Origin: Bacteroidales bacterium
Lineage (GTDB): Bacteria; Bacteroidota; Bacteroidia; Bacteroidales; UBA932
Direction of reading: 5' to 3'
NCBI GenBank assembly: GCA_024402095.1
Contig: JAKSJU010000012.1
Location: forward strand, 1-34,745
Length of the DNA: 34,745 nucleotides
Shown here: positions 9,638 to 28,031 of the stretch, piece by piece
Position numbering within the stretch: position 1 is the stretch's first letter
How the letters are laid out: each line of letters opens with the position of its first letter
Notes under the pieces: generated by a model
Told to the model about the DNA's origin: nothing
The model's database searches: none
What the model saw: only the letters and a program-made list of their open reading frames with translations
Position numbers and translations under genes: made by a program

Positions 9638-9672
9638 AAAAGGGGGACTCCTAAAGAGTCTCCCTTTTCAGT
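9638..9672. terminator. bidirectional terminator hairpin
   Basis: A 13-bp stem (9638-9650 with 9656-9668, one G-T pair) with a 5-base loop lies between the convergent small lipoprotein and aldo/keto reductase genes. Read on the minus strand the stem is followed by TTTTTCTTATTT, a good U-tract; on the plus strand only TTTTC, which is weaker. The minus-strand gene ends inside the loop. Confidence 0.82.
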
Positions 9673-10964
9673 TGCTCGATATACTTGTCGATGCGTTGCA
9701 ACTCGACAGGTATCCTGATGTGCTGAGGGCATTTATTCAGGCACTGGCCGCAGCCGATGCAGTGGTCGGCCTGACGTACGGTAGGAATGGCCTTATCGTA
9801 TTCCAGAAGATATTTCCGGCGTGTTCTCGCATAGTTCTTCTGCTCGCTGCTTACGACATAAGTGCCTTCTTTGATATTGTCATTGTAGAACTTGAATATT
9901 TCAGGAATATTGATTCCGTAAGGGCAAGGCATACAGTATTCACATCTTGTACATCTGACCAGAGGATATTGCTGGATGCCGTCGGCGACTTTCTCAAGGA
10001 AACTGAAATCCTCGTCTGACAGATTCTTGAAATTGGTGAAAGTCAGCAGGTTGTCACGGAGGTGGTCAATATAGGTCATGCCGCTCAACGCGGTCATCAC
10101 TCCCGGAAAACTGCCGCAGAAACGGAACGCCCACGACGCGATGCTGCGCTGCGGCTCACGCTCCTTGAGCATATCTGCAAGCGGTGCGGGAACGTCTGAA
10201 AGCTGCCCTCCGCGGAGCGGCTCCATAATAACTACAGGAATGCCCTTCTCTACGAGCTGCTCGTACAGATATTTCGCACTTCCTTCTCCGGAATGCGTCC
10301 AGTCTAGGTAATTCATCTGGATCTGGACGAAGTCCCAATGATATTTCTCATGAAGTGCGAGCAGGTCATCCATTCCTTTCCTGCCTCCGTGGAAGGAGAA
10401 TCCGAGGTGGCGGATCCTTCCTGCCTCGCGCTCTTTCAGAAGATAATCCAGGATGCCTGGCTTGATGAACCGCGTTTCCAGAGCCTGGAAATCTCCGATG
10501 GAATGCATCAGGTAATAGTCGATATGGTCGGTCTGATAATTTTCCAGAGACTTGTGATACATGCTGACGGCAGTCTCGTAGGATGCATCGCTGAAGTTAG
10601 AAAGTTTGGTCGCGATGTAATAGCTCTCTCTCGGATGCCTCAGCAGCGCGGTGGCAGTGGCCTTTTCGCTCATGCCCTGCAGATATACCGGGGCCGAGTC
10701 AAAATAGTTCACTCCATGCTCCAGAGCAAGGTCAACCATCTCATTGACCTTCTCCTGATCTATGATGTCCTTGCCGTTTTCATCCTTGATCATAGGCCAT
10801 CTCATCGCACCGAAGCCGAGCAGACCTATGCCCGGGAAATGCTGCGGCACATTGCCGTTGATCTCAAGAGAGGGTGCCTCCGATTCTTTTCCGTGTGTGC
10901 AGGCCATCGCAGCAGCGCCGACCATTCCGGCACCGGATATTTTCAAAAATTCACGTCTGTCCAT
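9651..10964 (-). CDS. Tat-exported aldo/keto reductase with C-terminal [4Fe-4S] ferredoxin domain
   Basis: The start at 10964 gives 437 residues beginning MDRREFLKISGAG, a twin-arginine (Tat) signal; a lipobox-like AMAC follows at residues 19-22, so it may be a Tat lipoprotein. The aldo/keto reductase barrel shows the usual catalytic tetrad: Asp and Tyr in YFDSAPVY, Lys in IATKLS and His in YYLMHS. The last ~100 residues hold two four-cysteine clusters, CTRCEYCMPCPYG and CIGCGQCLNKCP. This is the known FeS-bearing aldo/keto reductase subfamily common in anaerobes. Substrate is unknown. It follows the polyferredoxin gene by 10 bases, and the pair probably forms one electron-transfer chain at the membrane. 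Confidence 0.93.
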   Translation of the reverse strand: MDRREFLKISGAGMVGAAAMACTHGKESEAPSLEINGNVPQHFPGIGLLGFGAMRWPMIKDENGKDIIDQEKVNEMVDLALEHGVNYFDSAPVYLQGMSEKATATALLRHPRESYYIATKLSNFSDASYETAVSMYHKSLENYQTDHIDYYLMHSIGDFQALETRFIKPGILDYLLKEREAGRIRHLGFSFHGGRKGMDDLLALHEKYHWDFVQIQMNYLDWTHSGEGSAKYLYEQLVEKGIPVVIMEPLRGGQLSDVPAPLADMLKEREPQRSIASWAFRFCGSFPGVMTALSGMTYIDHLRDNLLTFTNFKNLSDEDFSFLEKVADGIQQYPLVRCTRCEYCMPCPYGINIPEIFKFYNDNIKEGTYVVSSEQKNYARTRRKYLLEYDKAIPTVRQADHCIGCGQCLNKCPQHIRIPVELQRIDKYIEQLKRETL

Positions 10965-10974
10965 AATGCTTATC

Positions 10975-12345
10975 CTAACTGATTTGATGAACTGAAAGAC
11001 CATCCACAACAATGGCGCTGATAGGCCTTGAAGGGCAAAGATTTTCGCAGGCGCCGCATCCTATGCAGCGTTCCTCGTCGACTACGGGGATACTCCTGCC
11101 GTCACTTTCCACCATTCTGATCGCTCCGGAAGGGCAGTGGCGCGCGCAGTTGCCGCAGCTGACTCCGTCTCTGTTTACGACGCAGAGCTCGGGATTGATC
11201 CTTGCATGTCCGATATGGATAAGAGCTTTCTGCTCTGCGCTTATAGGGAGAATCGCATCTGTCGGGCAGACATCGGCGCAAGCGGTGCATTCAGGCCTGC
11301 AATATCCTTTTTCATAACCCATCTGGGGCTGCATCAGGTGTTTGAGGTCAGTAGACGGGCGCAGTACATTGTTTGGGCAGGCGCTGATACAGAGACCGCA
11401 TCCTGTGCATCTGTCATAGAAATCCTTTACGCTTCCGGCTCCGAACGGCACAAGCCTCTCATTTCTCTGTGGTACTTCCTTCTCAAGGACCTTGGCCAGA
11501 CCTCCGTCAGCCTTGGCGATGGCTGATCCCCCAAGGAAAGCTGTGGCGGCGATGAATGCCCTCTTGCCGGTATCCACACCTTCTTCTTTCTTTTCTTCAG
11601 CCTTGGCCTTCCTGCCGAAGGCGAATCTATATCTGATTGCTCCCGCCTTGCAGTTGTCCAGACAGTCAAAGCAGTCGACGCATCTTGAATAGTCTATCTT
11701 CTGATCGAATGAACTGATGCAGGAAGCCTTGCACTTCTTTTCGCATACACCGCAGTGCACGCATTTGTCAGTATCTATCATCGGACGGAAAAGCGAGAAC
11801 CTTGAGAACAGGCTCAGTACAGTGCCGACAGGACAGATTGAATTGCACCATTCACGTCCCCATAACCACGCAGACACTGCTATCACCACGAAAGTGGATG
11901 CGCCTACAATTATGGCGGTGGCCGATGAAGGGTCGACTACAGTGCGGACCATTCTGCCGTAAGCGCTGTATGGCGCTATCAGGACAACGAACCATTGGAC
12001 GCCGAACATGAGAGCGAGAAGTGTCAGTGCGAGGAAAAAGTCGCGAAGCGCCCTGTTCTCCTTATGGAAATGGAAACGGGCTTTCTTTCCCTTGCGTCTG
12101 GAACTCAAAGAGTTGACGCAGTCCTGAAAGATGCCCATAGGGCAGATTACGGAGCAATAGATTCTTCCGAAAAGCAGAGTCACGACGACTGTTCCGGCGA
12201 TGACGGCGAAATTGAGTGCCAGACAAGAAGGAAGAAACTGCAGGCTTGCCATCCATCCCCACCATTGCTGGCCGATGCCGATGAAAAGCAGCGTTATTCC
12301 TATCAGGAACAGCGTTGCGACTGATATTCTGATTTTACGTAGCAT
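10975..12345 (-). CDS. membrane polyferredoxin, NapH-like domain fused to NapG-like ferredoxin domain
   Basis: The ATG at 12345 is preferred over a TTG at 12366; it gives 456 residues. Residues ~1-200 form four membrane helices with two CxxxCP motifs (CSVICPMG, CNSICPVG), the signature of NapH/MauN-type quinol-oxidising membrane proteins. Two ferredoxin motifs follow (CVHCGVCEKKCK, CVDCFDCLDNCK). After a charged linker there is a KRAFIAATAFLGGSAIAKA segment resembling a Tat signal or membrane helix. Beyond it lie four further cysteine clusters (CTGCGLCISACP, CRPECTACADVCP, CGNCARHCP and CIGCGACENLCP), the pattern of NapG. It likely passes electrons between the quinone pool and the downstream Tat-exported reductase. 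No nap nitrate reductase gene is nearby. Confidence 0.9.
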   Translation of the reverse strand: MLRKIRISVATLFLIGITLLFIGIGQQWWGWMASLQFLPSCLALNFAVIAGTVVVTLLFGRIYCSVICPMGIFQDCVNSLSSRRKGKKARFHFHKENRALRDFFLALTLLALMFGVQWFVVLIAPYSAYGRMVRTVVDPSSATAIIVGASTFVVIAVSAWLWGREWCNSICPVGTVLSLFSRFSLFRPMIDTDKCVHCGVCEKKCKASCISSFDQKIDYSRCVDCFDCLDNCKAGAIRYRFAFGRKAKAEEKKEEGVDTGKRAFIAATAFLGGSAIAKADGGLAKVLEKEVPQRNERLVPFGAGSVKDFYDRCTGCGLCISACPNNVLRPSTDLKHLMQPQMGYEKGYCRPECTACADVCPTDAILPISAEQKALIHIGHARINPELCVVNRDGVSCGNCARHCPSGAIRMVESDGRSIPVVDEERCIGCGACENLCPSRPISAIVVDGLSVHQIS

Positions 12346-12351
12346 AACCTT

Positions 12352-12359
12352 CAAATATA
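12352..12359 (-). promoter_or_regulatory. -7 promoter element for the polyferredoxin gene (TATATTTG)
   Basis: On the minus strand TATATTTG matches TAnnTTTG, with 6 bases between it and the ATG at 12345. Transcription would begin at or next to the start codon, implying a leaderless mRNA. No convincing TTG at -33 is seen. Confidence 0.5.
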
Positions 12360-12382
12360 AAAACAAATTGCCAAAAAAGTAG

Positions 12383-12416: not shown

Positions 12417-15023
12417 ATGACCTCAAAAGAGATTAGACAGAAATTTCTGGATTTTTTTGCTTCAAAGGGACACACTGTTGTTCCGTCAGCACCGATGGTA
12501 GTCAAGGGTGATCCGACATTGATGTTCACCAATGCGGGTATGAACCAGTTCAAGGATATATTCCTGGGGAATACAAAAGCGAAATTCTATCGCGCTGCGG
12601 ATTCACAGAAATGCCTGCGTGTGAGCGGAAAGCACAATGACCTTGAAGAGGTCGGACACGATACATATCATCACACAATGTTCGAGATGCTCGGCAACTG
12701 GAGTTTCGGCGACTATTTCAAGACCGAGGCAATAGACTGGGCATGGGAGCTTCTCACCGAGGTTTACGGCATAGACAAGAGTATTCTCTATGCTACGATT
12801 TTCGAGGGATCTGACGAATGCCCTATGGATCTCGAGGCCAAGCAGGCTTGGCTCAAACACCTTCCTGAGGACCATATCGTGCTCGGGAACAAGCATGACA
12901 ATTTCTGGGAAATGGGTGATACCGGCCCTTGCGGTCCGTGCTCCGAGATACATATCGATATCCGCACACCTCAGGAGAAGGCTTCCGGAGTCCTCGGACG
13001 CGACCTCGTGAACCAGTCCGACCCGCACGTCATCGAAATATGGAATCTTGTGTTCATGCAGTTCCAGAGAATGGCTGACGGCCATCTTGAAAATCTTCCT
13101 GCAAAGAATATCGATACCGGTATGGGATTCGAAAGGCTCTGCTCTGTGCTTCAGGGTAAGAATTCCAATTATGACAGTGACGTGTTCACCGGAATGCTCG
13201 GAAAGATTGGCGAGCTTTCAGGACACAAATACGGCGAGTCCGACAAGACGGACGTGGCAATGCGCGTTATTGCAGACCACATCCGCGCTATAAGTTTCTC
13301 GATTGCCGACGGCCAGTTGCCAAGCAACGTAAAGGCGGGCTACGTCATTAGACGAATCCTCAGGCGCGCTGTACGTTACGGCTATACTTTCCTAGGATTC
13401 ACCGAACCGTTCCTTTGCCGCCTTGTGCCTCAGCTTGTGGATGATATGGGCGGGGCGTATCCGGAGATAAAGGATCAGCAGAAACTGATCGAATCAGTCA
13501 TCAGGGAGGAAGAAATGGCATTCCTGCGCACTTTGGACCGCGGTATCAAACTGCTTGACGAATGCATGGCCGCTGCTTCAGGCACGAAGGTCATTTCAGG
13601 GGAAGATGCATTCAAGCTTTATGACACTTTCGGATTCCCGATAGACCTTACAGAACTTATCGCGACCGAGAACGGTTTCAAGGTTGATATCGAGGGTTTC
13701 CAGGTTGAACTCGGAAAGCAGAAGGAACGCGCCCGCAATGCCACAGCCAATGAATTCGGCGACTGGCAGGAGATCTATCCGGGAGAAGTCAAATTCATCG
13801 GATACGATAAACTTGTTTCCGAGCAGGCCAGGCTTCTGCGATATCGTACTGTGGTACAGAAGGGAAAGACGCTTTATCAGCTCGTATTCAATTATACTCC
13901 GTTCTATGCAGAGAAAGGCGGACAGGTGGGAGATACCGGCTATATAGTATCCGCAGACGGAGAAAAGATCAATATCACGAATACCGTTGAGGAGAACAAG
14001 CTTACCATCCATATCGCAGAGAGAATCCCTCAGAATGTCACGAGTCCTTTCGACCTGTTCGTGGATGCTGAACGCAGGCTGAAGACTTCAAACAATCACT
14101 CCTGCACACACCTTCTCGACCAGGCGCTCAGAGAGATTGTCGGCACTCACGTAGAGCAGAAGGGCTCATACGTATGCGATGACTATTTCCGTTTCGACTT
14201 CTCCCATTTCGAGAAGCTTACCGACGCTCAGATAGAGCAGGTGGAGGCGAGGGTCAATGAACTCATACGCGAAAACAACCCTCTCGAGGAAAACAGGTCA
14301 GCTTCGATGGAAGAGGCAAAGGCAATGGGTGCAATCGCATTGTTCGGTGAGAAATACGGGGATAGAGTGAGGGTCGTCAAGTTCGGAAACAGCGTGGAAC
14401 TCTGTGGCGGTTGCCATACCAGTGCTACAGGAAACATCGGACTTTTCAAGATTGTCAGTGAAAGTGCCGTGGCTGCCGGAGTCAGACGTATCGAGGCTGT
14501 CAGCGGGACCGCTGCCTTGGGACGTGTCAAAGAATATGAGGATACGCTCAAACAGCTGCGCTCTATGCTGGGGAATACTGCAAACGTACTTTCTTCTGTG
14601 GAGAAACTTATTGCCGACAATGCGCAGTATAAGAAGACGGCGGAGGAGGATGAGAAAAAGAGAGCATCCCTTCTTGCCGACGAACTTGTCGAGAACGCCG
14701 GGATGGTTTCCGGCATCAAAGTTGTCAGGTATACAGAGTCAAAACGCAATCCTGCTCTTGTGCGCTCCATCGCTGCACTTGTCCAGAAGGCTGCAGACAA
14801 CATCGCTTTCGTGGCTGCATTTGAATTCGAAGGTAAGCCGCAGCTTATTCTTGCTTATTCGGATGATCTCGTGAAAGCCGGACACAATGCCGGAGCTGAA
14901 ATCCGTGAAGTAGCCAAACTGATACAGGGCGGCGGCGGTGGCCAGCCGGGACTTGCAACAGCGGGCGGAAAAGATTCTGCCGGACTTTCCGCTGCACTTG
15001 ACGCAATGATTTCCAAACTGTAG
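12417..15023 (+). CDS. alaS: alanyl-tRNA synthetase
   Basis: This enzyme charges tRNA-Ala with alanine in the cytoplasm. The ATG at 12417 gives 868 residues and the classic AlaRS start ([19 protein letters not shown]), the usual family length; an upstream TTG adds only six residues. The class II catalytic core carries [28 protein letters not shown] and GMGFERL motifs. The editing domain has HSCTH (His561, His565) and CGGCH (Cys663-His667), the zinc-binding HxxxH...CxxxH set that removes mischarged Ser or Gly. The C-terminal DHHA1-type domain ends with [14 protein letters not shown]. Its stop codon shares a base with the GTG start of the next gene, so translation of the fusion protein is likely coupled to alaS. 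Confidence 0.99.
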
Positions 15024-17455
15024 TGAAGAAATTTGACAGGTTCATACTTAAAGCTTTCATAGGGCCGTTCTTTGCGGTCCTGGCTGTTGTCATCTTCATT
15101 TTGATGATGCAGTTCCTGTGGCTATACATTGATGAACTTGTCGGGAAAGGACTCGGCTTAGGAGTTATTCTTGAGTTTATGATGTGGGGAGGCTTTACGA
15201 TAATGCCTCTCGCACTGCCTCTCGCTGCGCTTCTGTCCTCTGTCATGACCCTCGGCAATATGGCCGAAAGCAACGAGCTGATGGCAATGAAGGCGTCCGG
15301 AATTTCTGTCCGCAGGGTGATGGCACCTATAATGATAGCGTCGGTCTTCATCAGCATCGGTGCATATTTTGTCGGAAATAACCTTGTCCCCGAGGCCTAT
15401 AACGAAATCTTTACCCTCAGGGATGATATCGGAAAGACAAAGGATGAGATAAAGATACCGTCCGGTACGTTCTATGACGGTATTGACGGGTATATCCTCC
15501 GTGTTAACGAGACGGACGAAGAGACGGGGATGATGAGAGACGTGATGGTGTATGACCATTCGGCCCACAAAGGCAATATTGCCATTGCTCTGGCTGATTC
15601 AGCCACTATCAAGATGTCAAAGAACAAGGACTATCTCATTTTTACCATGTATCACGGTGCCAATTATCAGGAGGACAATGACTGGACATACAGAGATACC
15701 ACCCTTGCACTGCAGAGAATACATTTCAACCAGCAGGAGATGATTATTCCTCTTGCCAATTACACGTTCGAGAAGTCGGATTCCAGCCGTTTCGGAGACC
15801 AGATAAAGTCAATGAGAGTGTCCGAACTCAACGTCGAGCGTGACTCCCTGCGAAAGCTGACAAGCGAATCCTTCGACAGACATTACCGGGCGATGCTGGG
15901 AGGCCTTTTCATCCTTGGAAGGCAGCTTGATACGGCTTTTGCCGAGCAGAGGCCGAAAACGGTTTATGACAATGACAGTTTCATGAGCTGGAATTCAGTC
16001 TCGGATGAAATTGATGCGGTGGATAAGGCTCTTGAGAGATATACGAACTTTAAAGCCACGTCCATGTCGATGGCTCAGGATGATTATGAATGGAATTTCT
16101 TCCTCCGGAGAGCGGACATCGAGGTCCTTAAGAGAATCGCACAGGCTCTGGCTTGTCTGATACTCTTCTTTGTCGGTGCTCCTCTTGGAGCCCTGATCCG
16201 CAGAGGCGGACTTGGAGCAAGCGCCATCGTGTCCGTACTTTTCTTCGTGCTGTACTGGGTGATAGACGTCATCGGCAATAAACTTGCCAAGGATGGAAAC
16301 GTAAGTGCATTCATAGGTGTATTTATCTCCGCGGCAGTGCTTTTGCCTATCGGTATTTTCCTGACAAGCAAGGCGGTTCATGATTCGGACCTTTTCAATA
16401 TGGATAACATCAAAAACAGATGGAGGCGCCTGATTTCCAAGATTGCGGGTTTCTTCCACCGGACAAGGATCGTGTATATGGGTACGCCTGAGTTTGCAGT
16501 TGCTCCTCTTGACGCCTTGATAAAGAACAAATATAAAGTTGTCGGAGTTGTCACCGTGGCTGACAAGCCAAGCGGAAGGGGCCTGGCCGTAAATGAAAGT
16601 GCGGTCAAGAAATATGCAGTGGAGCATGGCATTCCTGTGCTTCAGCCTGTAAAACTCAAGGATCCCGAATTCTTGTCTGCGCTCAGGGCGTTGAAAGCGG
16701 ACCTTTTCGTGGTGGTTGCTTTCCGCATGCTGCCAGAGGAAGTGTGGTCTATGCCGAAACTCGGCACGTTCAACCTCCACGCTGCACTCCTACCGCAGTA
16801 CAGAGGCGCCGCCCCGATAAATTGGGCCGTGATAAACGGAGAACGTCTCACCGGCGTTACGACTTTCATGCTGGACAAAGATATTGATACGGGTGCCATT
16901 CTTCTCAGGCAGGAATGCCGTATCGACCCTGAGGACAATGCCGGTGACGTCCACGACAAACTCATGGCAATCGGGTCCGAGCTTGTCGTTGAGACTGTAG
17001 AGGGCATTATCCAGAGGAATATTGAGACACGTGTCCAGCGCTCGTTCATCCAGGGATCCGAGATGCTGAAACCAGCACCGAAGATACACAGGGAACTGTG
17101 CCATATAGACTGGGAGGATAACGCACAGTCAATATGCAATCTCATAAGGGGTCTCAGCCCGTACCCGGCTGCGTTTACGGAAATCTATAGAGAGGGTTCC
17201 GATCCGGTTCAGCTCAAACTGTTCAGTGCAGAGCGCTCCGATATGGCCGTTCCTGCCGGGGCAATAGCGTCGGACGGAAAGACATACATCAATATCGGCA
17301 CGCCTGACGGGTCCGTCTCTTTGAAGGAAGTTCAGCTGGCTGGAAAGAAACGTATGGATGTCAGGACATTCCTGCTGGGATTCAGGGAAATTGAAACATA
17401 CAGTACTACCAGAGGCACGTCAAAAGCCGAGATAGAAAAAACCAAGTCATGCTGA
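15023..17455 (+). CDS. fusion of LptF/LptG-type permease with methionyl-tRNA formyltransferase
   Basis: One uninterrupted 810-residue frame encodes two proteins that are normally separate. Residues 1-~475 are a YjgP/YjgQ (LptF/LptG) permease: three N-terminal helices (~10-30, 47-75, 95-118), a large periplasmic domain (~120-370) and three C-terminal helices (~375-460). This part would belong to the LptB2FG ABC transporter that extracts lipopolysaccharide from the inner membrane. After a basic linker (KNRWRRLISKIAGFFHR), residues ~480-800 are a complete Fmt, which formylates initiator Met-tRNA. It contains IVYMGTPEFAV, ADKPSGRG, catalytic Asn584, His586 (FNLHAALLPQYRG) and Asp622 (DIDTG). Because LptF/G proteins have both termini in the cytoplasm, Fmt would sit on the correct side. 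The start is GTG, overlapping the alaS stop by one base; the end overlaps the next gene by seven. No internal ATG at the usual Fmt start is present (a GTG at 16472 is in frame). Confidence 0.93.
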   Translation: MKKFDRFILKAFIGPFFAVLAVVIFILMMQFLWLYIDELVGKGLGLGVILEFMMWGGFTIMPLALPLAALLSSVMTLGNMAESNELMAMKASGISVRRVMAPIMIASVFISIGAYFVGNNLVPEAYNEIFTLRDDIGKTKDEIKIPSGTFYDGIDGYILRVNETDEETGMMRDVMVYDHSAHKGNIAIALADSATIKMSKNKDYLIFTMYHGANYQEDNDWTYRDTTLALQRIHFNQQEMIIPLANYTFEKSDSSRFGDQIKSMRVSELNVERDSLRKLTSESFDRHYRAMLGGLFILGRQLDTAFAEQRPKTVYDNDSFMSWNSVSDEIDAVDKALERYTNFKATSMSMAQDDYEWNFFLRRADIEVLKRIAQALACLILFFVGAPLGALIRRGGLGASAIVSVLFFVLYWVIDVIGNKLAKDGNVSAFIGVFISAAVLLPIGIFLTSKAVHDSDLFNMDNIKNRWRRLISKIAGFFHRTRIVYMGTPEFAVAPLDALIKNKYKVVGVVTVADKPSGRGLAVNESAVKKYAVEHGIPVLQPVKLKDPEFLSALRALKADLFVVVAFRMLPEEVWSMPKLGTFNLHAALLPQYRGAAPINWAVINGERLTGVTTFMLDKDIDTGAILLRQECRIDPEDNAGDVHDKLMAIGSELVVETVEGIIQRNIETRVQRSFIQGSEMLKPAPKIHRELCHIDWEDNAQSICNLIRGLSPYPAAFTEIYREGSDPVQLKLFSAERSDMAVPAGAIASDGKTYINIGTPDGSVSLKEVQLAGKKRMDVRTFLLGFREIETYSTTRGTSKAEIEKTKSC

Positions 17456-18072
17456 GTATAGTTGCCAACGGTCTGTTCCCAAGGACGGCTTTTCCGCGTC
17501 ATCTGCTGGAAACGTCAGATTGCATCATCTGCTGTGACGGTGCGCTCAGTGTGCTGGAAAAGCATGGGATAGTGCCTGATGTGGTAATAGGTGATCTTGA
17601 TTCGGTATGCCACCGTGCCCTGGGCAGATTCAAGGGCATCGTGGTCAAAGACGAGGATCAGGAGACAAATGATTTGACAAAAGCCGTGCATTACGCGGCA
17701 GAGAATTTCCCTGATGAGACAAGAATCCATATTCTTGCCGCTACAGGACGTTCTGAGGCGCATACTATAGGAAATGTGTCGCTGCTGATGGAATATGCGA
17801 AATCCTTTCCCCAGCTGGAAATAGATATGGTTTCGGACTATTCCACTATATTTGCGATGACCGACAGTGATACGCTCCACATTGGGGAGGGCCGCAGGAT
17901 TTCCATTTTCTCGCCTGACCCTACACTAAAGGTGAAATCCACCGGTCTCCGATGGAAGACTGACAATGTTGTCTTTGACAACTGGTGGAAAGCGTCGCTG
18001 AATGTGGCAGATGACGATGCCGTTAAACTTGAGTTTAATCATAAGTCGTTGGCTCTTGTGATTTTAGACTAG
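17449..18072 (+). CDS. thiamine pyrophosphokinase
   Basis: This enzyme transfers pyrophosphate from ATP to thiamine, making the cofactor thiamine diphosphate. The 207-residue product shows the family signatures GDLDS (residues 48-52) and QETNDLTKA (71-79, with the metal-binding Asp75), and an ATGRSEAHTIGN segment that fits the catalytic domain. The C-terminal ~70 residues fit the small beta-sandwich thiamine-binding domain. The ATG overlaps the fusion gene's end by seven bases. Typical family length is ~210-220, so it is complete. It is part of the alaS operon and is not linked to thiamine biosynthesis genes here; no TPP riboswitch is seen upstream, and an intragenic start would leave little room for one. 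Confidence 0.93.
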   Translation: MLSIVANGLFPRTAFPRHLLETSDCIICCDGALSVLEKHGIVPDVVIGDLDSVCHRALGRFKGIVVKDEDQETNDLTKAVHYAAENFPDETRIHILAATGRSEAHTIGNVSLLMEYAKSFPQLEIDMVSDYSTIFAMTDSDTLHIGEGRRISIFSPDPTLKVKSTGLRWKTDNVVFDNWWKASLNVADDDAVKLEFNHKSLALVILD

Positions 18073-18088
18073 ATTTTGATTTAGAATA

Positions 18089-19111
18089 ATGCAGCCGTTC
18101 AGAAGATATATATTCAATCCGGAAACTCTTACCTATGAAAAGAAGGAGCTTCCGAGATGGTTCTACATACTCTGCCGGGTCTCAGGCGTAGTCTTCTTCG
18201 GCGTGCTTTTCTTTTTCTACCTGTGGATATACACGGGTGTGCTTGGCCTGGATCTTCCAAAGACCGCCCGTCTGAAAAGGCAGAATGCAGAGTGGCAGGC
18301 AAAATTCCAGGTTCTCAATCATCAGCTTGACGTTTACAGCGAGACGCTGAAAGGAATTGAAAATATGGATGATGACGTCTACAGGTCTGTTTTCGGCATG
18401 AATCCGATTCCTCCTGAGATCAGGAATGCCGGCTTCGGAGGGGTGGACAGATATGCATATCTCGACGATCTCGGCGCTGATGCCGATCTCAAGGGTACGG
18501 TGATGCGCATGGACATCATGATGAAGCAGGCCGCAGTTCAGAGCAAGGCGCTTGACGAGGTGTCCGTGGTGTCAAAGCAGGCGGGAGATATGATTTCCCA
18601 TATTCCGGCAGTTCCTCCGTTAAGCACAAAAAAAGGGAATTTCAGCATTTCCAGCCCGTTCGGATGGAGGAGTGACCCTATTTCAGGCAGAAGAACCATG
18701 CATTCAGGAATGGACCTTGCTGCAGACAAGGGCGTTAAGGTGTATGCCACCGGAGACGGGGTGGTTGAGTCAGTCGAATATCAATTCTCCGGATATGGGA
18801 ACCAGGTGATAATCAACCACGGTTTCGGATATAAGACAAGATACGCCCATCTGAGTGCGACGGATGTCGTTGAGGGAATGACAGTCAGCAGGGGGGATCT
18901 GGTAGGTCGTGTGGGTAAGTCCGGAAAATCCACCGGTCCGCATCTTCACTATGAGGTGCTGTACAAGGGAGCCCAGGTAAATCCGTACAATTACATGGAC
19001 TTGAAAATGCCTCATGAGGAATATGAAGCTATGATTGAGCGCCGCCTGTCGGATTCGGAACTCAACAGGAGAACAACTACGTCTGACATCATCAGCAGGA
19101 CAAAGAGATAA
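18089..19111 (+). CDS. membrane-anchored M23 (LytM-type) metallopeptidase
   Basis: The 340-residue protein has a short cytoplasmic start, one membrane helix (~27-52), a helical stalk (~55-165) and a C-terminal M23 domain. The zinc ligands are intact: His205 and Asp209 in MHSGMDLA, and His285/His287 in GPHLHYEV. The substrate-site SSPFGWRSDPISGRR hairpin is also present. M23 enzymes cut peptide cross-bridges of peptidoglycan in the periplasm during growth and division, or act as divisome activators when inactive; here active-site residues suggest an active enzyme. It overlaps by one base (taATG) the second M23 gene and follows the thiamine kinase by 16 bases. Confidence 0.94.
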   Translation: MQPFRRYIFNPETLTYEKKELPRWFYILCRVSGVVFFGVLFFFYLWIYTGVLGLDLPKTARLKRQNAEWQAKFQVLNHQLDVYSETLKGIENMDDDVYRSVFGMNPIPPEIRNAGFGGVDRYAYLDDLGADADLKGTVMRMDIMMKQAAVQSKALDEVSVVSKQAGDMISHIPAVPPLSTKKGNFSISSPFGWRSDPISGRRTMHSGMDLAADKGVKVYATGDGVVESVEYQFSGYGNQVIINHGFGYKTRYAHLSATDVVEGMTVSRGDLVGRVGKSGKSTGPHLHYEVLYKGAQVNPYNYMDLKMPHEEYEAMIERRLSDSELNRRTTTSDIISRTKR

Positions 19112-20052
19112 TGCATTACGAATTTGACCATACAAACTTCAAGTTCAAGAAGTCCGGTATCAGCATCTGGAAGCCGGTCAGGCAGTTCTTGATATATCTC
19201 CTTGCGACGGTGTCTGTGACAGTGGTCCTGTATTTCGTACTTTCCCTTTTCATCAGTACTGACGTGGAGAAAAAGCTTTCCCGCGAGAACAGGATGTATG
19301 AGAAGCTTTATCCTACTCTGGAAGAGAAGGAAGATTTCCTGGGAGACGTGATAACGGGATTACAGGTTAAGGACAATGACCTCTATGAGCAGATATTCCA
19401 TTCCGAATCACCCGGTGTGGATCCAGCGGGATCACTAGATTTCTTGTTCGGCAGCGATACTATCCCTGATTCCAAACTTGTCAGATATACCCAGGAAAAG
19501 GCGGACAAGCTGCTGGAAAAAGGATCTTCGGTGGAGGAGAATTTCAGGAGGGCGTTCGAACTTCTTGCGCAGGGTGAAGCAATACCTCCAATGGAGATGC
19601 CCCTGGAAGGACTTTCGTATTCGCAGATAGGTGCTTCTACCGGGATGAAAATCAGTCCTTTCCTGAAGGCTTATGTGTTGCATGACGGTCTTGACCTGAT
19701 AGCTCCCCAGGAGACGCCGGTGCTCTCTGCCGGGAGCGGTATTGTGATTAATGTGACCAGGTCGACCAAGGGAAGCGGAAACACAGTTGTGATAGAGCAT
19801 GATGGAGGATATGTTACAAGATATTCCCATCTTTCCGCAACCAGCGTCAATCAGGGAAACCGCGTTAAGCGGGGCCAGAGAATCGGAACCGTGGGAATGA
19901 CCGGAACATCATTCGCGCCGCATCTCCATTATGAAGTCCTGAAGGACGGGATGAATATGGATCCGATGGGATATATTCTCGCATCGGTCAGTGCAGATGA
20001 GTACGGAAATATGCTATATATGGCAGCAAGTACCAAGCAATCAATGGATTAA
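19111..20052 (+). CDS. second membrane-anchored M23 metallopeptidase
   Basis: This 313-residue protein is a diverged partner of the gene before it, with the same layout: a short N-terminal cytoplasmic part, a membrane helix (~25-47), a helical stalk, and a C-terminal M23 domain. Zinc ligands are His191 and Asp195 (LHDGLDLIA) and His271/His273 (APHLHYEV), so the metal site looks complete. However, the usual SPFGWR...P hairpin before the first zinc His is shortened to ISPFLKAYVL, which may change access to the active site. The ATG overlaps the stop of the first M23 gene by one base, suggesting equal production and perhaps a heterodimer. The function, in peptidoglycan remodelling, is inferred. 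Confidence 0.93.
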   Translation: MHYEFDHTNFKFKKSGISIWKPVRQFLIYLLATVSVTVVLYFVLSLFISTDVEKKLSRENRMYEKLYPTLEEKEDFLGDVITGLQVKDNDLYEQIFHSESPGVDPAGSLDFLFGSDTIPDSKLVRYTQEKADKLLEKGSSVEENFRRAFELLAQGEAIPPMEMPLEGLSYSQIGASTGMKISPFLKAYVLHDGLDLIAPQETPVLSAGSGIVINVTRSTKGSGNTVVIEHDGGYVTRYSHLSATSVNQGNRVKRGQRIGTVGMTGTSFAPHLHYEVLKDGMNMDPMGYILASVSADEYGNMLYMAASTKQSMD

Positions 20053-20058
20053 CTCAAT

Positions 20059-20376
20059 ATGGAAAAATTATTCTATTCAATCAGCGAGGTGGCGGAAATG
20101 CTGGGGGAAAACATCTCCCTTGTGAGATTCTGGACCAATACTTTTGAAAAGTATATCAAGCCGCGCAGGACAGCCAAAGGCAACAGGCAATATACTCTTG
20201 ATGAAATCGAGGTCCTGAAGAAAATCCATTTCCTGGTTAAGGATCAGGGACTGACTCTGGACGGAGTGGCAAAGCAGCTTTCGGTTAAGGACTCGGGTGT
20301 TTCCAAGACCGTGAAGGCCATCGATTCGCTCAAAGAGATAAGAAGCCAGCTGGTACAAATCAAAGCCTCATTGTAG
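20059..20376 (+). CDS. short MerR-family transcriptional regulator
   Basis: This 105-residue protein begins with a MerR-type winged helix-turn-helix: YSISEVAEMLGENISLVRFW, then RRTAKGNRQYTLDEIEVL and a second helical pair (LVKDQGLTLDGVAKQL). Only a short helical tail follows, so there is no effector-binding domain with sensing cysteines. Such short MerR proteins are common next to the M23 and alaS genes of Bacteroidota, and their targets are not evident. It starts six bases after the second M23 gene and is the last gene of the alaS cluster. It could regulate the cluster or distant genes. Confidence 0.9.
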   Translation: MEKLFYSISEVAEMLGENISLVRFWTNTFEKYIKPRRTAKGNRQYTLDEIEVLKKIHFLVKDQGLTLDGVAKQLSVKDSGVSKTVKAIDSLKEIRSQLVQIKASL

Positions 20377-22713: not shown

Positions 22714-23101
22714 GGGACGCATAGTCGAGATAACCCCGGAGTACACCACTGTGGAGATTGTCTCCGGTTCAGCCTGTAGCGAGTGTCATGCTTCAGGCCT
22801 TTGCGGAATTTCAGAATATACCAAAAAAGCAGTGCAGGTGCCTACAAGCGGATGGGACAACTACAAAGTCGGTGACGAGGTGGATGTCCTGCTCAAGGCT
22901 TCAATGGGCCATAAGGCGGTTTGGGTGGCTTATGTCATTCCATTGTTCGTACTGCTCGCGGGACTTTTGGGCTTGAATGCCCTCGGATGCGCAGAACTGG
23001 TTTCCGGACTTGGCGGAATAGCCCTTACGGCATTGTACTACTTCTTTGTCTGGCTTTTCCGGAATAAACTTAAAAACGAATATATTTTTACAATCAAATA
23101 G
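22694..23101 (+). CDS. RseC/MucC-family membrane protein (SoxR-reducing system type)
   Basis: The ATG at 22694 is chosen over a TTG at 22688; it overlaps dnaB by 20 bases and gives 135 residues. The N-terminal part carries a cysteine set, CSECHASGLC, typical of RseC; two membrane helices (~75-95 and ~103-122) follow. RseC-like proteins occur with rnf/rsx genes, where in E. coli the Rsx complex with RseC keeps SoxR reduced. Here it precedes rnfB by 4 bases, so it likely assists Rnf assembly or couples redox signals to it. Its exact action in Bacteroidota is unknown. Confidence 0.92.
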   Translation: MKDIAHKGRIVEITPEYTTVEIVSGSACSECHASGLCGISEYTKKAVQVPTSGWDNYKVGDEVDVLLKASMGHKAVWVAYVIPLFVLLAGLLGLNALGCAELVSGLGGIALTALYYFFVWLFRNKLKNEYIFTIK

Positions 23102-23105
23102 CATT

Positions 23106-23981
23106 ATGTCAACAACGATTATCTGGACCATTGTGATTCTCGCCGGACTCGGCCTGATCCTTTCTCTTGTCCTGTATCTCGTGGCAGCGAAATTCAAAGT
23201 TGAGGAAGACCCCCGGATTGATGAAGTCGAGAAAGTCATGCCGGGTGCCAATTGCGGCGGTTGCGGTTTTGCCGGTTGCCGTGCTTTTGCGGATGCCGCA
23301 GTAAAAGCTCCTAATCTGGACAACAACTATTGTCCTGTGGGAGGGAATGAGGTAATGAAGAAGGTTGCTGCGATATTAGGCTACGAAATAGTTGAAAAAA
23401 CGCCTCAGGTTGCTGTAGTCCGCTGCAACGGAACATGTGAGAACCGTCCGAGAACAAATGTATATGACGGGGTAAAGAGTTGCAAGGTCAAGGCAGCCCT
23501 CTACAGTGGAGACACCGGATGTCCGTTCGGATGTCTGGGTTGCGGTGATTGCGTTGAGGCTTGTCAGTTCGGTGCCATCACCATGGACCCGGCTACCGGT
23601 CTTCCGGTAGTGGACGAGACAAAGTGTACGGCATGCGGTGCCTGCGCAAAAGCTTGCCCGAAGCATATCATTGAATTGCGGAACAAGGGTCCGCGCGGAA
23701 TGCGTGTCTTTGTCTCTTGCGTGAACAAGGATAAGGGTGCCATAGCAAGAAAGGCCTGTACAGCTGCCTGCATCGGCTGCGGCAAGTGTGCAAAAGTCTG
23801 TGCCCAGGAAGCCATCACTGTTGAGGACAATGTCGCTTACATTGATTTTACAAAGTGCAAGCTTTGCAAGAAGTGTGTGGCAGAGTGCCCTACAGGAGCA
23901 ATTCATACAGTAAATTTCCCGGTTCTGCCTCCTAAGCCTGCTGCAGAACCTGTAAAGAAAGAGGAGGTCGCAAATGCGTAA
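23106..23981 (+). CDS. rnfB: Rnf complex subunit B (iron-sulfur)
   Basis: RnfB is the ferredoxin-docking subunit of the ion-pumping ferredoxin:NAD oxidoreductase. The ATG at 23106 gives 291 residues with an N-terminal membrane anchor (~5-27). The [4Fe-4S] domain CGGCGFAGC...C follows. Four more ferredoxin-type motifs are visible: CLGCGDCVEACQ, CTACGACAKACP, CIGCGKCAKVCA and CKLCKKCVAECP; CNGTC plus following cysteines may form another. This is the long, cluster-rich type, as in Acetobacterium, rather than the shorter enterobacterial RsxB. It overlaps rnfC by eight bases (ATGCGTAA). Confidence 0.97.
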   Translation: MSTTIIWTIVILAGLGLILSLVLYLVAAKFKVEEDPRIDEVEKVMPGANCGGCGFAGCRAFADAAVKAPNLDNNYCPVGGNEVMKKVAAILGYEIVEKTPQVAVVRCNGTCENRPRTNVYDGVKSCKVKAALYSGDTGCPFGCLGCGDCVEACQFGAITMDPATGLPVVDETKCTACGACAKACPKHIIELRNKGPRGMRVFVSCVNKDKGAIARKACTAACIGCGKCAKVCAQEAITVEDNVAYIDFTKCKLCKKCVAECPTGAIHTVNFPVLPPKPAAEPVKKEEVANA

Positions 23982-25326
23982 GTTGACATTCAGTAAGGGC
24001 GGTGTCCACCCTAATGACAGTAAATATTCACGTGAATGCGGAATAGAGGTCCTTCCTCTGCCGCAGGTGGTATATGTATCAATGGCCCAGCATCTTGGTG
24101 CACCCGCAAAACCTATTGTCAATGTGGGTGACTTTGTAAAGGCCGGACAGGTCATTGCCGAGCCGGGCGGATTCATCTCAGCCTTTGTGCACTCACCGGT
24201 ATCCGGTACAGTAAAGTCTATCGGTCCTCGCAAAGACCTTGCGGGAAACAATATGACCCATGTGGAGATTGCCGTGGAAGGTGATATCTGGGCGGATGGG
24301 ATTGATTTGAGCGATACTCTGGTGACGGAGATTCCGCAGGACCGCGAGACTATTCTCAAGAAAATCCAGGAATGCGGTGTCGTAGGACTCGGAGGAGCTA
24401 CTTTCCCTGCCCACGTTAAACTCAATCCTGCACCTGGGAAAGTGGCGGAATGCCTTATCATCAATGGAGCCGAGTGTGAGCCTTATCTTACCAGCGATTA
24501 TAGGATTATGATTGAGCGCAGCAAGGAAATCGCCGTCGGAGCTGCGATAATGCAGAAGGTACTGAACGGCTGTCCTTGCGTGATAGGTATTGAAGAGAAC
24601 AAGCCTGAGGCGGTCAATGCCATGTCAGCTGCCATCTCAGACCTCAAGCTTCAGAATATCGAAGTCAAGGTGCTTAAAAAGCGTTACCCGCAGGGAGGTG
24701 AAAAGCAGTTGATTGATGCTGTGATGCATCGTCAGGTACGTTCGGGAGGACTGCCGATTGATGTCGGAGCCGTAGTCCAGAACGCTGCCACTGCGCTTGC
24801 CGTTTATGAAGCAGTGCAGAAGAACAAACCTCTTGTCACCAACACGCTCACCGTAACTGGCGATTGTCTGCCGGAAAACAGACAGCACAATTATCTTTTC
24901 CGCATCGGTATTCCGCTTTCATACATTATCGAGTATGCCGGAGGGGTCCCCGAGGGAGCAGCCAAGATAATCAGCGGCGGTCCGATGATGGGCAAGGCTG
25001 TTGCCAATATCGACGCCGCAACTGTAAAAGGTTCTTCTTCCATACTTTATCTCTCAAAGCAATCGACTTTGAGAAAGGAAGAAAGCAACTGTATCCGCTG
25101 CGGCCGTTGTGCTGATGCCTGCCCTATGGGACTTGAGCCGTTCCTGCTGAACCGTCTAATAAAGGCGGGGGATATGGAAGGACTGGAAGATCGTTCCGTT
25201 CAGGATTGCATCGAATGCGGATGTTGTCTTTACAGCTGCCCGGCGAATATCCCTCTTCTGGACCGTATTCGTCCGGCGAAGGCTGCCGTCCTGGGTATAA
25301 TAAAATCAAGAAATATTAAAAAATAA
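23974..25326 (+). CDS. rnfC: Rnf complex subunit C (NADH/FMN and iron-sulfur)
   Basis: RnfC is the peripheral subunit that exchanges electrons with NAD(H). The 450-residue protein has an N-terminal RnfC/Nqo1-like barrel-sandwich segment (EVLPLPQVVYVSM to VSGTVKSIGPRK). The FMN/NADH domain then contains GVVGLGGATFPAHVKL and IINGAECEPYLTSDYR. Two C-terminal [4Fe-4S] motifs close the protein, CIRCGRCADACPMG and CIECGCCLYSCPAN. It is full length and overlaps rnfB. It would accept electrons from RnfB and reduce NAD, or the reverse. Confidence 0.97.
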   Translation: MRKLTFSKGGVHPNDSKYSRECGIEVLPLPQVVYVSMAQHLGAPAKPIVNVGDFVKAGQVIAEPGGFISAFVHSPVSGTVKSIGPRKDLAGNNMTHVEIAVEGDIWADGIDLSDTLVTEIPQDRETILKKIQECGVVGLGGATFPAHVKLNPAPGKVAECLIINGAECEPYLTSDYRIMIERSKEIAVGAAIMQKVLNGCPCVIGIEENKPEAVNAMSAAISDLKLQNIEVKVLKKRYPQGGEKQLIDAVMHRQVRSGGLPIDVGAVVQNAATALAVYEAVQKNKPLVTNTLTVTGDCLPENRQHNYLFRIGIPLSYIIEYAGGVPEGAAKIISGGPMMGKAVANIDAATVKGSSSILYLSKQSTLRKEESNCIRCGRCADACPMGLEPFLLNRLIKAGDMEGLEDRSVQDCIECGCCLYSCPANIPLLDRIRPAKAAVLGIIKSRNIKK

Positions 25327-25328
25327 AT

Positions 25329-26294
25329 ATGATGGACAAAATGTTGGTTTCTCCAAGCCCGCATATTCACGCGGCAGTGAGCACCCGCACGCTGATGCGG
25401 GATGTTATCATAGCGCTGGTCCCTGCGATAGTCGTTTCTGTGCTGTTCTATGGGTGGTCAGAACTTCTGGTCCTTGCAGTGAGCGTAGCCAGCTGTGTGC
25501 TTCTTGAGTGGGCTGTCACAAAGTGGCTGCTTCACAAGCCATCAACAATATCCGATTTGTCAGCAGTGGTCACCGGCCTTCTGCTTGCAATGAATCTGCC
25601 TTGCACAACGCCTTGGTGGGTTGTATTCATAGGGGCGGTCATCGCAATCTGCGTAGCTAAGCTGACCTTCGGCGGTATAGGACAGAATATTTTCAATCCT
25701 GCTATTACAGGCCGTGTGTTCCTGTTGATATCATTCCCGACCTATATGACTGACTGGACAGTCCCTCAAGGTTTCATTACAAAAGTGGACGCCTTTTCGG
25801 GGGCGACTCTCCTCGGCATAGTGAATGAGCAGGGTGCCGGTGCAGTTGCGGGACTTGATTATCTCCAGACTCTTTTCCTCAATATCGGAGGCTCCGCAGG
25901 TGAAATTTCTGCGCTTGCCCTCCTTGCAGGTTTTGTATATCTGGTTGTACGCAAGGTTATCAAGCCTTGGATTACCCTGAGCATATTCGCTACAGTGGCA
26001 ATCATATCAGGCATTTTCTGTGCAGTTGATCCCGCAACATTCACGGGACCTCTGTTCAACCTTCTTACCGGAGGACTGATTCTCGGCGCCTGCTTCATGG
26101 CGACTGACTATGTCACATCCCCGATGAATAACGTGGCAGGAATAATCTATGGTTTCGGCATCGGATTCATTGTAATGATGATACGTTATTTCGGGTCTTA
26201 TCCGGAAGGTGTTTCTTTCGCAATACTTATCATGAATATGGCGGTTCCTCTTCTCAACAGGGCGTTCCACCAGCATAAATACGGGAGGGCTTAG
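25329..26294 (+). CDS. rnfD: Rnf complex subunit D (covalent FMN membrane subunit)
   Basis: RnfD is an integral membrane subunit that carries a covalent FMN and helps move Na+ or H+. The 321-residue protein has about eight to ten hydrophobic helices. Its N-terminal VSPSPHIHA motif is typical of RnfD. The flavinylation motif reads DAFSGATLL (residues 154-162) with Thr160 as the predicted FMN acceptor. A GGIGQNIFNPAITGRVFL segment is a known NqrB/RnfD signature. Two start codons (25329 and 25332) are adjacent; the first is used. It is spaced two bases from rnfC and rnfG. Confidence 0.97.
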   Translation: MMDKMLVSPSPHIHAAVSTRTLMRDVIIALVPAIVVSVLFYGWSELLVLAVSVASCVLLEWAVTKWLLHKPSTISDLSAVVTGLLLAMNLPCTTPWWVVFIGAVIAICVAKLTFGGIGQNIFNPAITGRVFLLISFPTYMTDWTVPQGFITKVDAFSGATLLGIVNEQGAGAVAGLDYLQTLFLNIGGSAGEISALALLAGFVYLVVRKVIKPWITLSIFATVAIISGIFCAVDPATFTGPLFNLLTGGLILGACFMATDYVTSPMNNVAGIIYGFGIGFIVMMIRYFGSYPEGVSFAILIMNMAVPLLNRAFHQHKYGRA

Positions 26295-26296
26295 TT

Positions 26297-26848
26297 ATGG
26301 CAGCACAGTCAACATTGAGAAATATGGTCCTTTGCCTGACCTGCGTATGTCTTGTCTGCTCGGCAATACTCGGTGTCGTGTATGCGGTCACACTTGACCC
26401 TATCGCCGAGGCAAGCGCAAAAGCTCTCAAGGAGTCCATTGGACAGGTACTTCCTGAAGGTGGAGAGATCTCCGATGCCATGCAGGCCGAAGGTTTCGAC
26501 TATTATGTGAGCACAAAAGAGGGAGAAACGGTTGCATATGCCGTTAAATCGACTTCTGTCGGTTTCGGCGGCCCTCTTACCCTTATGGTCGGGGTGCTTG
26601 CGGATGGTACAGTTTTCAATACTTCCGTACTGTCTCACTCCGAGACACCGGGGCTTGGTGCGAAATGTACTTCCGATGAAGCGTTCATGTCGCAGTGGCG
26701 CGGATTCAGGGGACAACTTAAGGTAAAGAAGGACGGCGGCGATGTGGATGCTATCACAGCATCTACCATTACGTCACGTGCATATACACTTGCTGTTTCA
26801 AATGCAGTTGAGTTTGTCAAAAATATGGAGGGAGCAAAAAATGAGTAA
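26297..26848 (+). CDS. rnfG: Rnf complex subunit G (covalent FMN, periplasmic)
   Basis: RnfG carries a covalently bound FMN attached by ApbE at a threonine. The 183-residue protein has one N-terminal membrane helix (~10-32) and an FMN-binding domain with the core SHSETPGLGAKC. The attachment motif is non-canonical: D151-A-I-T-A-S-T157, where the family consensus is closer to S/T-G-A-T. The acceptor Thr157 is kept but Gly-Ala is replaced by Ala-Ser. It overlaps rnfE by eight bases (ATGAGTAA). No apbE gene is in the window. Confidence 0.95.
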   Translation: MAAQSTLRNMVLCLTCVCLVCSAILGVVYAVTLDPIAEASAKALKESIGQVLPEGGEISDAMQAEGFDYYVSTKEGETVAYAVKSTSVGFGGPLTLMVGVLADGTVFNTSVLSHSETPGLGAKCTSDEAFMSQWRGFRGQLKVKKDGGDVDAITASTITSRAYTLAVSNAVEFVKNMEGAKNE

Positions 26849-27422
26849 ACTTGGTCTTATCACTAAGGGATTTATCAAGGATAACCCTACGTTTGCGCTT
26901 GTGCTGGGAATGTGCCCGACACTTGCTACCACTACTTCCGCTATGAACGGTATGGAGATGGGACTTGCAACTCTCTTTGTACTTGTCCTCTCCAATATGG
27001 CAATCTCTGCTCTCGCGCCGATTGTCCCGGACAAAGTTCACATTCCGGTATATATTGTAGTGATTGCTACTTTCGTTACCGTGCTCCAGCTGCTCATGCA
27101 GGCTTTTGTGCCGGCGGTATATTCTACTCTCGGACTTTTCATCCCTCTTATCGTCGTAAACTGTATAGTTCTCGGAAGAGCAGAGGCTTATGCAAATAAG
27201 AACACGGTGTTTGATTCAGCGCTTGACGGACTTGGAATCGGCATAGGATTCACACTGTCCCTGACAGTGATAGGCATCATCCGTGAGATACTCGGAAGCG
27301 GTTCCGTTTTCGGATGTAAGTTTATTCCGGGAGACGGAATCCTTGCCTTTGTGATGGCCCCGGGTGCTTTCATGGTACTCGGATATCTTATGGTTCTGTT
27401 CAACAAGTATCTCAAAAAGTAA
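26841..27422 (+). CDS. rnfE: Rnf complex subunit E (membrane)
   Basis: RnfE is one of the two homologous membrane subunits (with RnfA) that form the ion path and share a [2Fe-2S] cluster within the membrane. The ATG at 26841, overlapping rnfG by eight bases, gives 193 residues starting MSKLGLITKGFIKDNPTF. The family segment LGMCPTLATTTSAMNGMEMG includes the conserved cysteine near residue 27; a second Cys lies in LIVVNCIVLGRAEA. Six membrane helices are expected. The earlier in-frame upstream sequence lies within rnfG and is not used. Confidence 0.96.
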   Translation: MSKLGLITKGFIKDNPTFALVLGMCPTLATTTSAMNGMEMGLATLFVLVLSNMAISALAPIVPDKVHIPVYIVVIATFVTVLQLLMQAFVPAVYSTLGLFIPLIVVNCIVLGRAEAYANKNTVFDSALDGLGIGIGFTLSLTVIGIIREILGSGSVFGCKFIPGDGILAFVMAPGAFMVLGYLMVLFNKYLKK

Positions 27423-27431
27423 TATTGCCCT

Positions 27432-28031
27432 ATGGAATTCTTATTAATCATCATTTCAGCGATATTCGTAAACAATATCCTGCTCTCACAGTTCCTGGGA
27501 ATATGCCCTTTCTTGGGAGTGTCCAACAAACTGAGCACTGCAACCGGAATGTCCGGAGCGGTATGCTTCGTCATCACACTTTCTACTGTTGTAACTTATC
27601 TGATCAATCAGTATCTTCTGGTTCCTTGCGGACTTGAATTCCTCCAGACCATAGCCTTCATCCTTGTGATTGCGGCTCTCGTTCAGGTTGTGGAGATTGT
27701 GCTCAAAAAGATAAGCCCGTCCCTTTATCAGGCACTCGGAATATTCCTCCCGCTTATCACCACCAACTGTGCAGTACTCGGTGTAGCGATAACAGTGGTT
27801 ACAAAACAGTTCACATTCGGCGGAACAGCCCATATGCTTAACCTTGGAGAGGCTACCGTATATGCACTTGCAACCTCTCTCGGGTATGGTTTGTCCATGA
27901 TTCTATTCGCGGGAATACGCGAACATCTTGCCGGAAACGATGTTCCTAAAGCCTTCAAGGGACTGCCGATAGCACTAATTACTGCCAGTATTATGGCTAT
28001 GGCATTCCTCGGTTTCTCAGGAATGGTATAG
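27432..28031 (+). CDS. rnfA: Rnf complex subunit A (membrane)
   Basis: RnfA is the membrane partner of RnfE. The 199-residue protein begins MEFLLIIISAIFVNNILLSQ. The conserved cysteine in FLGICPFLGVSNK and a second in LITTNCAVLGVA occupy positions equivalent to those of RnfE, consistent with the shared intramembrane [2Fe-2S] cluster. It has six hydrophobic helices. As the last gene of the rnf operon, it ends four bases before the 3' end of the convergent nfnB-like gene. I see no strong terminator between them. Confidence 0.97.
   Translation: MEFLLIIISAIFVNNILLSQFLGICPFLGVSNKLSTATGMSGAVCFVITLSTVVTYLINQYLLVPCGLEFLQTIAFILVIAALVQVVEIVLKKISPSLYQALGIFLPLITTNCAVLGVAITVVTKQFTFGGTAHMLNLGEATVYALATSLGYGLSMILFAGIREHLAGNDVPKAFKGLPIALITASIMAMAFLGFSGMV

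Follow-up and report, generated by a model that had tools for sequence, protein, structure and literature searches.

Permeases of the LptF/LptG family sit with their termini on the cytoplasmic side of the inner membrane, and methionyl-tRNA formyltransferase (Fmt) is usually regarded as a freely diffusing enzyme. A formyltransferase domain within a larger fusion is familiar from the formyltransferase-decarboxylase ArnA (PDB 1z7e), which presumably serves lipopolysaccharide (LPS) modification. The tying of translation enzymes to a membrane has been described as well: PMC4893482 reports that cyanobacterial aminoacyl-tRNA synthetases have recurrently acquired a CAAD anchor, which GluRS probably gained when adjacent genes fused.

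The protein described here, from a 34,745-nucleotide stretch of a Bacteroidales bacterium (contig JAKSJU010000012.1; hereafter the window), joins an LptF/G-type permease in frame to Fmt. With the permeases of LptB2FG(C) (PF03739; PDB 5x5y, 6mjp and 8frl) it shares a match over the whole domain and six predicted membrane segments, of which the third and fourth are separated by a large part, yet it differs in bearing a C-terminal enzyme and in scoring below both equivalog cut-offs. It likewise retains both domains of Fmt, N-terminal and C-terminal, together with its N, H and D residues (TIGR00460; PDB 1fmt/2fmt), whereas, unlike free Fmt, its Fmt half lacks a start of its own and has its N-terminus joined to a membrane protein. 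The resemblance to ArnA extends to a formyltransferase domain within a fusion, but the ArnA model NF005998 gives 144 bits where its cut-off is 777, and ArnA has no permease part. A parallel in kind is offered by the CAAD-anchored synthetases (PMC4893482), in which a translation enzyme is membrane-tied, the tie was gained repeatedly and once probably arose through fusion of neighbours; the anchor there is a CURT1/CAAD domain, whereas here it is a whole transporter, and a Pfam search found no CAAD domain in the fusion protein. Our literature search retrieved no paper on a fusion of a formyltransferase with LptF or LptG, which is an absence from the search and not from print.

Results

Domain architecture of the fusion protein

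A single open frame of 810 codons (15023..17455, plus strand), beginning with a GTG at 15023 and kept across the genus, encodes the permease followed by a complete Fmt; by comparison, the longest open frame among 500 base shuffles of this DNA was 200 codons. Three Pfam families are present in the protein, all above cut-off: LptF_LptG (residues 6-448), Formyl_trans_N (482-658) and Formyl_trans_C (687-787). Together with the NCBIfam fmt match, likewise above its cut-off, these bear out the sequence-only reading of one 810-residue frame holding a permease and a full Fmt. Upstream lies alaS, encoding alanine--tRNA ligase (12417..15023, plus strand; TIGR00344, 888 bits), whose TAG stop at 15021-15023 shares one base with the GTG start of the fusion, and downstream lies the thiamine pyrophosphokinase gene tpk (17449..18072, plus strand; TIGR01378, 111 bits, cut-off 76.4), whose first 7 bases are shared with the end of the fusion. 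Because genes overlap at both ends of the fusion, the compact row of alaS, fusion and tpk is probably an operon. A promoter and terminator scan gave 12 promoter-like sites against a shuffle mean of 9.5 and 8 terminator-like sites against a shuffle mean of 7.3; one terminator-like site, at 16375-16391 within the end of the permease, was taken as chance.

Around this row, two tandem M23 peptidase genes stand 3' of tpk (18089-20052), with a MerR-type regulator then at 20059. Further on, an Rnf-type electron transport cluster spans 23046-28031 (RnfC, an RnfD-type protein, an FMN-binding protein, two Rnf-Nqr membrane proteins and a ferredoxin protein). Divergent from alaS, an iron-sulphur pair on the minus strand (9651-12366) comprises a ferredoxin-domain aldo/keto reductase and a NapH-like polyferredoxin.

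The permease domain (15038..16366, plus strand; residues 6-448) matches LptF_LptG (PF03739) with 232.6 bits (cut-off 27.9; 8.7e-69) over positions 1-351 of the 353 in the profile. Scored against the two narrower models, the permease half reaches 164 bits with the LptF model TIGR04407 (equivalog cut-off 230) and 110 bits with the LptG model TIGR04408 (cut-off 240). Because both scores fall below their cut-offs and the first is the higher, the permease half is best described as LptF/G family, nearer LptF, and 'LptF-like' is to be read as merely the nearer label; the family named in the earlier reading stands, and the nearness to LptF is a correction to it. The hydropathy profile shows membrane segments in two groups of three, set about 250 residues apart and followed by a basic tail, in agreement with the six helices and large intervening domain proposed before. 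Three segments on either side of the 250 residues put both ends of the permease on one side of the membrane, and the even number of segments and the basic tail fit an Fmt tethered at the inner membrane.

Of 121 genus genomes, 120 contain PF03739. The search for a second permease gene in the window's own genome returned one other PF03739 copy besides the fusion, a 377-aa permease adjoining and overlapping tgt. This second LptF/G permease (G000 C11:6995-8044, read as L184:1481-2614) overlaps the end of tgt, so that each of the two LptF/G permease genes touches or overlaps a neighbour with a role in tRNA metabolism. PMC11130926 reports that its LptG/F candidates gave no complementation of queuosine-precursor uptake in E. 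coli, with expression problems as a possible cause. Elsewhere, the permeases at L158:1644-3539 (another family) and L139:1038-2870 (genus g21) carry a C-terminal extension of roughly 140-150 residues at the place of Fmt, that of L158 with a hydrophobic stretch near its end as judged by eye. At G243 C48:3552-4990 (L144; g2) the permease matches in two pieces in different frames, is broken or misassembled, and has a separate fmt beside it.

The fused copy and the Fmt supply of the genus

The Fmt half (16463..17386, plus strand; residues 481-788) scores 236.4 bits with TIGR00460, above the equivalog cut-off of 201.5. N584, H586 and D622, the residues picked out in the sequence-only reading, align with positions 108, 110 and 146 of the 1fmt chain (N, H and D), which we take to be catalytic, and are invariant across 67 aligned fusions. 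No second Fmt was found in the window's genome (1.33 Mb in 66 contigs, 84.7% complete), where the earlier reading had suggested looking for one. The one other Fmt-like match, on contig C7 of that genome (G000), was rejected as PurN; it adjoins a PurM-like ORF, called PurM by eye.

Among the 121 genomes of the genus, TIGR00460 is above cut-off in 111, at 112 places; the genome with two fmt matches (G059) has both within frames of at least 825 aa. The fmt match lies in a listed open frame of at least 791 aa in 108 genomes, a figure that mostly rests on open-frame length and so is weak evidence, since in one genome elsewhere (G332) two in-frame stops lie between permease and fmt within such a listed frame; it is backed by stop-free matches and by junctions read directly. 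In two incompletely assembled cases, one with an N gap (G025) and one whose contig starts inside the permease (G101), the permease end and Fmt share a frame. No unfused Fmt above cut-off was seen among the 121 genomes, one of which (G093) has a contig that ends inside Fmt with the junction out of view. From this lack of a free copy it is very probable that the fused one serves the cell as its Fmt. Five of the 121 have no fmt match (G014, G046, G062, G082, G119) and five have one only below cut-off among the matches listed (G004, G010, G047, G100, G117). These ten are mostly incomplete genomes; for G047 and G082, listed as 95% complete, the lack of a match above cut-off may reflect a missing contig or true loss.

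Distribution of the fusion

The in-frame permease-Fmt fusion is real and has been conserved over many species in a large, uncultured group of Bacteroidales; the genus of the window is conceivably Cryptobacteroides. All 49 distinct junctions of the genus that were read directly are fused in frame, and the fmt-permease query matched in 198 of 200 sampled genomes of the genus. Among the matches listed, at least 150 rows from 149 genomes cover the query, starting no later than residue 16 and reaching at least residue 721, and 147 of them are free of internal stops; the three listed rows with a stop inside (G080, G126, G138) proved fused when the DNA was read directly. Three of four named loci from Bacteroidales metagenome-assembled genomes (MAGs) are also fused (two from horse faeces, one RUI352), and the split one, L122, appears to be a contig of G208, from another genus of the family. 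Neither a frameshift nor a stop was found at 16440-16480, where the earlier reading had said that one would tell against the fusion, and the 49 of 49 in-frame junctions together with the conserved frame rule out a sequencing error, artefact or frameshift at the junction in the genus.

A search for the junction across Bacteroidales, as the sequence-only reading had proposed, thus finds it conserved through the genus and recurrent in the family. In total, the fused junctions that were read number 76 and come from nine of the family's genera. The states of the genera were assigned from a family sample of 199 genomes and 25 genera and by reading DNA, and cover all but g9, g13, g20 and g24. Of the rows that entered the tree described below, every one is fused in g1 (10/10), g17 (3/3), g16 (6/6), g15 (5/5), g6 (6/6), g3 (1/1) and g5 (1/1), and one of three is fused in each of the mixed genera g2 and g23. 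The remaining rows are split, in g4 (9), g14 (4), g11, g12, g25 and g21 (3 each), g10, g19 and g22 (2 each), and g18, g7 and g8 (1 each).

Most family genera that were read have lptF and fmt side by side, whether separate, overlapping or fused, and many family loci show the order alaS-lptF-fmt, frequently together with tpk. Counted from the first start codon, split pairs are separated by gaps of 6 to 62 bases or overlap out of frame by 4 to 41 bases; in g7 and g8 about 1.2 kb lies between the two genes, and in g12 and g19 the permease frame extends over the first fmt codons. Outside the family, no row among the matches listed runs free of stops through both halves (order 295, class 395 and phylum 296 genomes, in overlapping samples). 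In G403, a genome from a different family (f15), lptF and fmt are adjacent yet separate, 24 bases apart, and in four other-family genomes chosen for having both genes on one contig the genes are 1.2 to 3.7 kb apart. Further fusions suggested by the listed open-frame length (G332, at 953 aa, G931, G1154, G1137 and G1126) were rejected on reading the DNA.

Repeated change between fused and split states

The relationship of fused and split loci was assessed with a tree of 77 rows built from AlaS, permease and Fmt (a quick tree under LG+G4, with a weak root and one long branch, G403). The fused state requires five changes on this tree, at least three of them forced by strongly supported branches. 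A single origin, with all 34 fused rows constrained to a clade, was rejected by the AU test (dlnL 819, p 5e-68), as was a single clade without the g23 row (dlnL 138, p 2e-6); fused and split states were called before the tree, while the AU tests were run, and the second grouping picked, after the tree had been seen. The rejection of a single origin means that fusion or fission recurred, and the fused state has accordingly been made or unmade more than once in the family, with gain and loss not distinguishable. The isolated fusions of G200 and G258 rest on single genomes and are the weaker cases.

The arrangement of the split genes suggests how such changes could come about. As the tail-to-head lptF and fmt stand at short gaps or overlap out of frame, a single frame would result from the loss of a stop or from a small indel, and in g12 and g19, where the permease frame already covers the first fmt codons, a small indel would suffice to join or part the genes.

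The linker

Permease and Fmt are connected by a basic linker (16388..16462, plus strand; about residues 456-480) with neither a stop nor a conserved start codon. Over 52 linker rows, an acidic residue stands 25 codons before MGT (D in 46, E in 6), an R-I pair is invariant 4 and 3 codons before MGT, just ahead of the first strand, and the mean net charge from -22 to -5 is about +6.5. Linker codons vary more than Fmt codons at positions 1 and 2, and this faster change indicates that the linker sequence is loosely constrained. A scan for amphipathic helices gave a shuffle p of about 0.03 for the 18-mers of the window, with p<0.05 in just 14 of the 52 rows.

Discussion

We consider it probable that the locus encodes an uncleaved protein of two functions, made by the in-frame union of neighbouring genes, in which Fmt is anchored to the inner membrane; the two activities, the absence of cleavage and any advantage gained are inferred. 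The permease half would act as an LptF-type partner in the LPS exporter of the inner membrane, its C-terminus facing the cytoplasm. From there the Fmt half would formylate initiator Met-tRNA at the membrane, held on a basic linker of about 25 residues. Such a tether would be compatible with both jobs and may be near-neutral, and a near-neutral tether may persist because two changes, a new stop and a new start, are needed before the genes can separate.

A different account of the same open frame is that it yields two products, with Fmt also or mainly released, either from a start inside the linker or because a protease cuts the linker once the protein has been inserted. Near the junction of the window, in-frame start-like codons are indeed found at ATG 16400 (residue 460), GTG 16472 (residue 484; already marked in the sequence-only reading) and ATG 16478 (the M of MGTPEF), of which the first two are the candidate starts. 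Across the 76 distinct fused junctions, 49 have some ATG, GTG or TTG 3-20 codons upstream of MGTPEF, and the nearest ATG is at -11 in 20 of the 49 genus junctions. These codons are, however, not conserved: 27 of the 76 lack any ATG, GTG or TTG at 3-20, in 27 the nearest 35 codons contain no ATG, and the GTG two codons upstream of MGTPEF recurs in 11. Split junctions, by contrast, have a start codon 3-20 codons upstream in 45 of 45 cases, including five outside the family, and an ATG at 3-12 in 35. The former start Met of Fmt is thus lost in the fusions, with no start codon conserved in its place, and translation from GTG16472 would moreover remove the R-I pair that is invariant in the 52 linker rows. 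The basic, exposed linker would be a plausible protease site; taking both routes together, we regard release of a separate Fmt as rather unlikely.

An uncleaved fusion could also have been selected for its tether, which would place formylation near membrane-bound ribosomes or tie initiation to envelope export. The persistence of the fusion through a genus of more than 200 species and its recurrence in the family speak for such coupling, as do the recurrent gain of CAAD membrane anchors by synthetases in the cyanobacterial account cited above (PMC4893482) and the overlap of the genome's other LptF/G permease with a tRNA-modification gene, tgt. Against it, sister genera that share this gene order manage with separate genes, which shows that the union is dispensable, and adjacency alone makes fusion easy. 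We therefore hold selected coupling to be improbable and favour an easy, nearly neutral union of neighbours over it. Equally doubtful is the furthest form of the idea, in which the LPS exporter would carry the sole Fmt of the cell and be a working anchor for initiator-tRNA formylation. Translation initiation would then be focused on the site of envelope export and perhaps gauge its activity, a state reached repeatedly from the same neighbourhood. As for gene decay or an artefact of assembly or sequencing, all four named loci come from MAGs and the other genomes are MAG-like in completeness and contig number; an open junction common to genomes at about 45-69% protein identity and the invariance of the catalytic residues in the fusions nevertheless make this explanation scarcely credible.

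For annotation, an ORF named after one of its halves would hide the other. Within the family, the pair occurs both split and fused without a change of gene order, which offers a natural comparison for how neighbouring genes become one protein. For the organism, the sole Fmt detected is built into an inner-membrane transporter, which allows a direct test of whether placement at the membrane is required for initiator-tRNA formylation, is tolerated by it or benefits it.
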